From: Chloroflexota bacterium
GTDB taxonomy: Bacteria > Chloroflexota > Dormibacteria > Dormibacterales > Dormibacteraceae
Direction of reading: 5' to 3'
Length of the DNA: 61,224 nt
Assembly: GCA_005883575.1 (NCBI GenBank)
Contig: VBFH01000039.1
Coordinates: 1 to 61,224 of the forward strand
Positions within the stretch are counted from its first letter, which is position 1; every line of letters starts with the position of its first letter. Positions 23,360 through 26,147 of this stretch are shown piece by piece. A model generated the notes under the pieces. That model was not told the DNA's origin and searched no databases. It was given only the letters and a program-made list of their open reading frames with translations. The position numbers and the translations under genes are program-made.

Positions 23360-23407
23360 GGCGACTAATTCCAGTAACGGGTGGAGTTGAATACGCGTTA
23401 CCCGACC

Positions 23408-25087
23408 ATGGCGCCAAATCGGCGGACCGTGAATATCCGCGGCCGCGAGTATCCGGTCCTGCTCCCGAGCCTCCGCGACCCGCGTCTTCACGTGGCGGCT
23501 GTCCTCCTCACGCTCCAGGTGCTCGGCCAGACCGTCCTCGATTTCCGTCTTTCCGTTGCGCAGATCTTGATCTGCCTCGCCACCGGCGCCCTGATCGAGT
23601 TCGGGTATGGATTCTTCAAGGACAAAGTGATCATGTGGCCCGCGAGCGGACTGCTCACGGGCAACAGCGCCGCGTTCATCCTGCGAGTGCCGGGCACGTT
23701 CCATGGCCAATGGTGGAGCACGCGAGGCTACTGGATCTTCATCGGAGTGGTAGCGGTCTCGATGGCCTCCAAGTATCTGATCCGGTGGCGGGGCCGGCAC
23801 ATCTTCAACCCGTCGAACCTGGGCCTGGTGCTGGCGTTCGTCGCCCTCGGGCCCCAGTACACGGAACCGCAGGATCTGTGGTGGATTCCCATGGGGCCCT
23901 GGATGATCGTGACCTACGCGATCCTGATCGGCGGCGGCCTGGCGATCGGATGGGAGCTCAAGCTGCTCGGCCTCGAGCTCGGCTACATGGTCGCGTTCGC
24001 GATCTTCGTCGCGCTTGCCCTGGCTCCAGTTCCAGACCACTGCATGATCGCGAGCTGGCACGCGACGCCGATATGCGGTCGCGAGCTGTGGCAGATCCTG
24101 GTCACCTCGCCGGAGCTCCTGATCTTCGCCTTCTTCATGGTTCCCGACCCGCGGACCGTGCCCGACGGCCAGCTCGGCAGGTTGGTCTTCGGTGTCCTGG
24201 TCGCCTTCGCCTCCGTGCTGCTGATCGGTCCGACGACGCTGGAGTTCTGGACCAAGACAGCGATCCTCGCCAGTCTGGTCTTCCTTTGCGCCGGCCGGTT
24301 CGCCCTGGCCCGGCTCCTGGAGCCGATCGAGGAAGCAGGCGGGGTGCGGGAAGGCATCCGCCGCATGGGCTGGGCGGCGCCGGGCGCGGTCGGCGTCTCC
24401 TTGCTGCTCATGGCCGTCCTGCCCCTGTCGGCTGAGGCTTCGCTGCACAGCCCCGAGCCGGCGCCGGAGTTGCCGGACGGCTCGACGCCGAAGCTTTCCC
24501 TGACGGTGGGGGCGGCGGGCCAGGACATCGGGTCGTGGACTTTCCAGAGAGCGGGCAACGCGCTGCCGCCCGCTGGCGGCACCTCGCCGACGTCGGCGTC
24601 GGGGCGGGTCTGGATCCTCCCTCCGATCCCCAAGGTGACGATTCCTGACAACGTGCACGCCTTCGATCCTTCTCTCGATCAGGCGACGGCCAATTCCTGG
24701 GCACACGACGCCGTCCTCGACCTGATGATCGAGTCGGAGGCGCGCCGCGCTCACGACATGACCATGGCGGGGCAAGGCGCCACCGGCGACGACGCCTTGA
24801 AGGAGTTCACCGACGTCGTCCGTCAGGACATCAGCGCCGGCAAGTACGTGCAGAAGACCTACAGCTTCGACCGCGTGCAGCTGACGCTGTTCCTGCCGAA
24901 GTTCAGCACGCAGGCGCGCCGGTTGGTCGGCGTGACGCTGCACGGGACGACGACGCTAGTGACCAGGGACGCGTCCGGGAAGGTGCTGTCGCAGCAGACG
25001 CTGTCCTACGCGAAAAGCTGGGGTCTAGCCGGCGACACCGACCACCTGGTCCTGGTCAACGACTACACCGACCTCACCCTGGCTTAG
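23408..25087 (+). CDS. RnfD/NqrB/UnbU-like membrane protein with extracytoplasmic C-terminal domain
   Basis: About 559 residues from the ATG at 23408; a GTG at 23381 is possible. The first ~350 residues are 9-10 membrane helices with RnfD/NqrB/UnbU family marks: MWPASGLLTGNSAAFILRVP and the RHIFNPSNLGLVLAF motif, which in RnfD/NqrB lies at the covalent FMN site. Some family members lack the FMN Thr, and I cannot assign it here. From ~residue 355 a soluble domain of ~200 residues follows (LSLTVGAAGQDIGSWTFQRA), not part of classical RnfD. No other Rnf or Nqr genes are nearby. An electron-transport or enediyne-type accessory role cannot be settled from sequence. Confidence 0.75.
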   Translation: MAPNRRTVNIRGREYPVLLPSLRDPRLHVAAVLLTLQVLGQTVLDFRLSVAQILICLATGALIEFGYGFFKDKVIMWPASGLLTGNSAAFILRVPGTFHGQWWSTRGYWIFIGVVAVSMASKYLIRWRGRHIFNPSNLGLVLAFVALGPQYTEPQDLWWIPMGPWMIVTYAILIGGGLAIGWELKLLGLELGYMVAFAIFVALALAPVPDHCMIASWHATPICGRELWQILVTSPELLIFAFFMVPDPRTVPDGQLGRLVFGVLVAFASVLLIGPTTLEFWTKTAILASLVFLCAGRFALARLLEPIEEAGGVREGIRRMGWAAPGAVGVSLLLMAVLPLSAEASLHSPEPAPELPDGSTPKLSLTVGAAGQDIGSWTFQRAGNALPPAGGTSPTSASGRVWILPPIPKVTIPDNVHAFDPSLDQATANSWAHDAVLDLMIESEARRAHDMTMAGQGATGDDALKEFTDVVRQDISAGKYVQKTYSFDRVQLTLFLPKFSTQARRLVGVTLHGTTTLVTRDASGKVLSQQTLSYAKSWGLAGDTDHLVLVNDYTDLTLA

Positions 25088-25658
25088 CTGCCGGCGGGAT
25101 CCCGTTCGGCTCGTAGATCGCCGGAGGCTCGATGCCGAAGGTGTCGGCGAGACGGACGAAGAGGTTGAACAGAGCCGCATCGTAGGCAGCCTCGGCGATC
25201 TGCTCGTCGGTCCAGCCTGATTCGCGCAGGGCCTGCACCTGCTCATCGGTCACGCGGTATGCGTGTTTTGTGATGGTTTCGACGAAATCGAGCAGCAGCC
25301 TATGGGGCTGGTCAAGCCCGGCGGCGTCGAGGTCGCCGCTGCGCAGTGCCTCCGCGACCTGCCCGAACGTCTCGCCCTGCAACTGCAGGAACCAGCTGTG
25401 CGAGCTGAGTCAATACCGGCACTTGTTGAGAGCCGAGACGTACGAGGCGATCATCTCGTGCTGCGCCCTGGTCAGCGCGCCGTCGGTGAAGTGGAGGCCC
25501 GAGGCGGCGTTGATCGCGGCCAGGAAGTCGGGACGAAGGCTCATGGTGCGGAGGATGTCGGGCACGACCTTGGCCACACTGCGAGCTTTGCTCTGGGTGT
25601 AGACGTTGGCCAGTGGCCCTTCGGCGTCGGCCTCCTCGATCATCTTGATCCGAGCCAT
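25074..25658 (-). CDS. AhpD-like peroxidase-family protein with in-frame TGA (probable selenocysteine)
   Basis: One continuous frame of 194 codons if the TGA at 25412-25410 is read as Sec. The N-terminal part (MARIKMIEEADAEGPLANVY, then MIASYVSALNKCRY) matches the CMD/AhpD peroxidase-related family. The next codon is TGA, exactly where the second Cys of the CxxC redox motif belongs, and the frame continues LSSHSWFLQLQGE with the catalytic His, then a normal C-terminal half (RVTDEQVQALRESGWTDEQI). So the motif is C-R-Y-U-x-S-S-H. A bSECIS-like hairpin follows the TGA. The family reduces hydroperoxides by thiol chemistry. The alternative is a nonsense mutation or sequencing error. The start is ATG 25658 (GTG 25682 is also possible). 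It lies 33 nt after a truncated globin gene, probably co-transcribed. The stop overlaps the 3' end of the preceding plus-strand gene by 14 nt. Confidence 0.82.
25371..25404 (-). promoter_or_regulatory. bSECIS-like hairpin downstream of the in-frame TGA
   Basis: On the minus strand, immediately after the TGA (25412-25410) and a 5-nt spacer, CTCGC (25404-25400) pairs with GCGAG (25375-25371). Inside, CCTGC (25389-25385) pairs with GCAGG (25380-25376), closing the 4-nt loop AGTT, with a 10-nt bulge on the 5' side. The apical loop starts 25 nt after the TGA and has G in its second position. Both properties fit bacterial SECIS elements as I know them (loop about 16-37 nt from the UGA, G among the first loop bases). 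Confidence 0.6.
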
Positions 25659-25691: not shown

Positions 25692-26147
25692 TTACGCCGT
25701 GACCAGGCCGTCCCAGGTCCAGCGCGGCATCGGCTGATGAGGCTCGACGTGGGTGCCGGCCGGCGCATACGAGTTGACCTCGCGCGTCGCCCAGTGGATG
25801 TAGTCGCAAAGTGCTCGCCGGAAAGCGGTGTCCTTTGGCAGCTCGGCGTCATCCATCGCCTGGATGAAGCAGGCTTCGAACCGATCGCCCATCTCCTCGG
25901 GCGCGCCCTCGCCGGCGTGGATCGTGAGCATCCCGGAGTGGCCGCCGAGGTTGGTCGAATAGCTGGGCGGCCCACCGAAAACCTCGGCCCAGTAGGCGGC
26001 CAGGTTTTCGATGTGACGGGGGCTGACGTGGTGCGAGAAGGGATGGTTGAGCTCGGGGTCGGCGAGGCAGCGCTCGTGCGTGGCCGCCGCGAGCGCGAGG
26101 AACCCCTGCTCGCCCCCGGCGAACTCATAGATGGATGGCCGTGACAT
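25692..26147 (-). CDS. Truncated hemoglobin (globin) family protein
   Basis: 151 residues. The trHb pattern is clear: IYEFAGGEQGFLALAAATHE, PELNHPFSHHVSPRHIENLA with the cluster of histidines (proximal His and neighbours), and YWAEVFGGPPSYS, then HSGMLTIHAG. It resembles group II truncated globins, which bind O2 or NO and often protect against oxidative or nitrosative stress. It ends 9 nt before the possible GTG start (33 nt before the ATG) of the AhpD-like gene on the same strand, so an oxidative-stress pair is likely. No heme-binding residue can be proven without alignment. Confidence 0.88.
   Translation of the reverse strand: MSRPSIYEFAGGEQGFLALAAATHERCLADPELNHPFSHHVSPRHIENLAAYWAEVFGGPPSYSTNLGGHSGMLTIHAGEGAPEEMGDRFEACFIQAMDDAELPKDTAFRRALCDYIHWATREVNSYAPAGTHVEPHQPMPRWTWDGLVTA

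Follow-up and report, generated by a model that had tools for sequence, protein, structure and literature searches.

Does a soil bacterium of the Chloroflexota/Dormibacterota group read an in-frame UGA as selenocysteine (Sec) in the active site of an AhpD-like protein? The question is raised by a minus-strand frame in the window (the whole stretch of DNA that was analysed, 61,224 nucleotides), which runs from an ATG at 25658 to 25074 and is open except for a single internal TGA at 25412-25410. The answer is almost certainly yes; the UGA, its conservation, the decoding machinery, the hairpin and the family are established by computation. The features concerned are:

25074..25658, minus strand: AhpD-like (peroxidase-related, TIGR01926) gene, almost certainly a selenoprotein gene, 194 aa, with an ATG start and a TGA stop at 25076-25074
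25410..25412, minus strand: in-frame UGA, almost certainly read as Sec83, the second position of C80-R-Y-U83 (homologue comparison)
25375..25390, minus strand: predicted bSECIS upper stem-loop UCCUGC-AGUU-GCAGGG, 6 bp, loop at 25384-25381 (RNAalifold, covariation)
25692..26147, minus strand: truncated (bacterial-like) globin gene, 151 aa (PF01152, 44.1 bits)

The product reads MARIKMIEE...SALNKCRY(UGA)LSSHSWFLQLQ...PPAAKPG and is followed by the TGA stop. This confirms the original prediction that an AhpD-family frame is cut by a UGA at the second Cys of a C-x-x-C motif (C-R-Y-UGA-L-S-S-H), and the coordinates first assigned to the gene are correct. The start is most likely ATG 25658 rather than GTG 25682, because the homologues start at the former. 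The product matches the CMD domain in Pfam (PF02627, 52.1 bits) and the NCBIfam model TIGR01926 ‘peroxidase-related enzyme’ (89.4 bits, cut-off 81.8). When gene calling ignores Sec, the same frame yields two ORFs, 25682-25410 and 25382-25074. On the plus strand, a membrane-protein ORF (23381-25087) is convergent with the gene and overlaps it by 14 bp at its end; the gene that occupies the position of this ORF at a related locus (L026) matches NQR2/RnfD/RnfE weakly.

The UGA is conserved. All 51 other close homologues (50-89% identity) have TGA as the Sec83 codon; their records are labelled Chloroflexota, Dormibacterota, Acidobacteria and Planctomycetota. With the window's own, these 52 close sequences comprise 42 distinct ones. 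Of the 37 loci obtained by scanning species genomes, 36 are relatives of 50-88% identity, all with TGA, and the remaining one (29% identity) has TGC. Fifteen further close homologues from 301 phylum genomes, which may partly repeat genomes of the species scan, also all have TGA. On both sides of the UGA, dN is about 0.06-0.23 and dS about 0.3-1.3, and this low and similar dN/dS indicates purifying selection on both halves, so that the half downstream of the UGA is translated in the AhpD frame. The two flanks are thus conserved as originally argued, unlike what decay after a nonsense mutation would leave. A point against the Sec reading is that two genomes of the same genus lack the AhpD-like gene, one of them in spite of having selA.

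The genome carries the complete Sec-decoding trait (selA, selB, selC and selD). The selA (510.6 bits) and selB (345.3 bits) genes adjoin on contig 39 of the genome, and contig 42 holds a tRNA-Sec with a UCA anticodon (71.4 bits) that both Rfam (RF01852) and ARAGORN identify as canonical; a second tRNA-Sec candidate (C62, 48.6 bits) proved to be a tRNA-Ser and was rejected. The absence of selB and tRNA-Sec, on which the original prediction would have fallen, is therefore not what the genome shows. The selD gene (L021, G000:C86:204596-205507; 336.9 bits) has its own UGA in SHGAG-U-ACKLSP, and two formate-dehydrogenase-like genes (L092 on G000:C103 and L093 on G000:C38) have theirs in RT-U-HAPSV and RV-U-HGPTV, all at canonical Sec sites; the suggestion that fdhD in the window fits Sec use in formate dehydrogenase was an apt one. 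Across the phylum, selA occurs in all 15 sampled genomes that have a close AhpD-like homologue, a co-occurrence that by itself argues only weakly, selA being present in 243 of 301 phylum genomes.

Behind the UGA, RNAalifold on 36 distinct sequences gave a single stem of 6 bp, in which columns 23-28 pair with 33-38; its AGUU loop sits 25 nt after the UGA. This upper stem is paired in 100% of cells in the alignment, one of its pairs swaps from C-G to U-A on both sides (a compensatory change) and the same U-A variant recurs in a Planctomycetota genome (L103). Exactly at the hairpin, synonymous sites do not vary: Leu101, in the loop, is TTG in 42/42 distinct sequences, although TTG makes up 14.8% of the gene's Leu codons overall, and Gln100 is likewise always CAG (42/42). 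Both residues are numbered from GTG 25682. The published bSECIS model specifies a loop of 3-9 nt, a stem of 4-16 bp, a G in loop positions 1-2 and a spacing of 16-37 nt (PMC13188914), and the hairpin agrees on all four counts (AGUU loop, 6 bp, loop G, 25 nt). The two-part, bSECIS-like hairpin first proposed consequently stands for its upper stem-loop, including the 25-nt distance and the loop G, but not for its lower stem (CUCGC/GCGAG). The window's sequence can form this lower stem, yet the relatives do not conserve it: it pairs in 51% of cells, no better than in shuffles.

In the comparison of homologues, the check proposed at the outset, this codon is TGA (Sec) or else encodes Cys, the latter in genomes that lack selA. 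Loci fetched from Planctomycetota and Acidobacteriota samples comprise 51 with TGA, 8 with TGC/TGT and 1 with GGG (L106). Close Cys versions (L104, L105, L132) are without the hairpin, and selA is absent from 6/6 tested genomes with Cys versions and present in 2/2 tested Sec genomes, which is the pattern expected of Sec/Cys exchange. On a tree of 110 rows, built by a quick method only, 4-5 changes of the Sec/Cys label are required, and every one of the 38 rows in the window's clade has Sec. The GGG locus (G348:C173:6087-6602, Planctomycetota), a further point against the Sec reading, has Gly at the Sec codon and keeps the CUGCAGUUGCAG hairpin in a genome with selA; its frame is longer at the N-terminus (420 aa open) and it represents either a recent Sec loss or an altered sequence record. 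Many distant AhpD-like relatives from Chloroflexota, Planctomycetota and Acidobacteriota (L137, L138, L079, L084 and others) also have a UGA, followed by a different sequence, GGAGAGUUUCUCC, that encodes HGEFLR and suggests another type of SECIS hairpin, unrelated to the first, within the AhpD-like family. Among the matches listed, no close homologue lies on a plasmid; the plasmid-borne ones are distant (<60% identity) and annotated as ordinary peroxidase-related or CMD proteins.

The predicted structure (pLDDT 89.4) has an AhpD-like helical fold that matches 6k40, 2prr and 3c1l, with residues 81-92 (H81-92) as the active-site helix. In PA0269, the AhpD proton relay consists of five residues, E36, C48, Y50, C51 and H55 (PMC3141380); in the alignment E68, C80, Y82, U83 and H87 stand at exactly this spacing, giving the AhpD-type series of Glu, Cys, Tyr/His, Cys/Sec and His.

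Could the UGA mean something other than Sec? One alternative is a pseudogene, with an AhpD-like gene of the usual CxxC type in which the TGA arose by nonsense mutation or by an error of sequencing. Cys versions in related genomes speak for it, but the recurrence of the TGA in the 51 homologues across several phyla refutes this idea, and similar selection up- and downstream and the lack of any further internal stop leave it next to no probability. Decoding of the UGA as another amino acid, such as Cys (through an opal tRNA of the tRNA-Cys type) or Trp (in a changed code), has slightly more to recommend it: homologues have Cys at the Sec83 position, and some bacteria have opal-decoding tRNA-Cys variants. 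It is nevertheless very improbable for a gene whose own stop is TGA, in a genome that has selA and selD together with a UCA tRNA of canonical tRNA-Sec type, and in which UGA occupies the canonical Sec places of SelD and formate dehydrogenase. The UGA could also normally terminate translation, with the downstream half separate or made by occasional readthrough, and with a two-part protein that does not need Sec. A Sec-unaware caller does split the frame in this way; yet such a split would cut the active-site helix, and the hairpin, with its conserved synonymous sites, agrees with a bSECIS, so that we give this possibility almost no credence.

The best explanation as a whole, to which we assign a probability of about 0.96, is a Sec-containing AhpD-like thiol oxidoreductase in which SelB and the hairpin direct Sec83 and the relay tunes its redox activity. 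The small hairpin, which follows closely on the inner UGA, would recruit SelB loaded with Sec-tRNA-Sec, so that the ribosome would insert Sec83 there but terminate at the UGA with which the gene ends. Sec83 would replace the second redox Cys of AhpD (M. tuberculosis Cys133); it would pair with Cys80 as a selenenyl-sulfide, and the proton relay of Glu68, Tyr82 and His87 would tune it. From the intact relay residues we infer a catalytic role, in which Sec83 may reduce peroxides or other small oxidants, or pass electrons to another peroxidase, and the protein would thus function in peroxide reduction or thiol transfer.

The truncated globin gene, correctly named as a neighbour from the start, lies directly upstream with a gap of 33 nt, probably in one operon with the AhpD-like gene. 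The two adjoin at 20 related loci, every one of them from the group of close relatives, and form a conserved gene pair there. Using tblastn, no globin was found at more distant relatives or at L026 and L028; outside the close relatives, no shared partner gene was found near the AhpD-like gene at L026, L052, L054 and L058. Functional coupling to the globin, and with it to the chemistry of NO or oxygen, is thus a guess and would apply to this lineage only. Our literature search found passing mentions of an AhpD and truncated-hemoglobin operon.

How does the gene relate to known families? As was pointed out originally, Sec-containing AhpD-like proteins are known from other bacteria: CxxU members were described from the Sargasso Sea and GOS data (‘AhpD-like 1’, COG2128; PMC1088965, PMC2398784), and ‘AhpD-like protein, TIGR01926, CxxU’ is listed among prokaryotic selenoproteins in reviews, including one of 2026 (PMC13188914). 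Since the family is already in reviews, the gene is not new in kind. It shares with the family the TIGR01926 match and an in-frame TGA at the second Cys position of CxxC with known Cys homologues, and is a well-supported new member, the comparison with published members being at the level of the family. NF041238 (AhpD_rel_CFYUT, alkylhydroperoxidase-related (seleno)protein) is likewise AhpD-related with Sec in CxxU, and 180 residues align; membership was rejected, as the score of 78.7 bits is far below the cut-off of 175 and the model is longer (357 positions). Cys-type peroxidase-related AhpD-like structures (6k40, 2prr, 3c1l, 2oyo) share the fold and catalytic motif but have Cys where the window's protein has Sec. 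M. tuberculosis AhpD (1gu9/1knc) has the five-residue relay, equally spaced, in its active-site helices, but overall similarity is low and the chain topology different.

The gene belongs to a clade centred on Chloroflexota that has a hairpin of its own and, among close relatives, a truncated globin as partner. This clade combines CRYU/CHYU-LSSHxWFLQLQ with the CUGCAGUUGCAG hairpin, whereas most other Sec members fetched are of H(A/G)EFLR or DLR types, and no curated model is specific to it. That it constitutes a distinct, unnamed Sec-AhpD subfamily centred on Chloroflexota/Dormibacterota, with a near-invariant SECIS of its own and the globin as partner in a two-gene peroxide/nitric-oxide defence unit of soil bacteria, is a tentative proposal that we consider rather unlikely as a whole. 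Our literature search found no paper treating both Dormibacterota and selenocysteine. Altogether, a little-studied soil lineage gains a clear selenoprotein, and one that is easily mis-annotated, since Sec-unaware callers break the gene at its active site into two. The hairpin, maintained over deep divergence, and the relaxed sequence that Cys versions have in genomes lacking selA provide a clean natural experiment on the requirements of a minimal bacterial SECIS.
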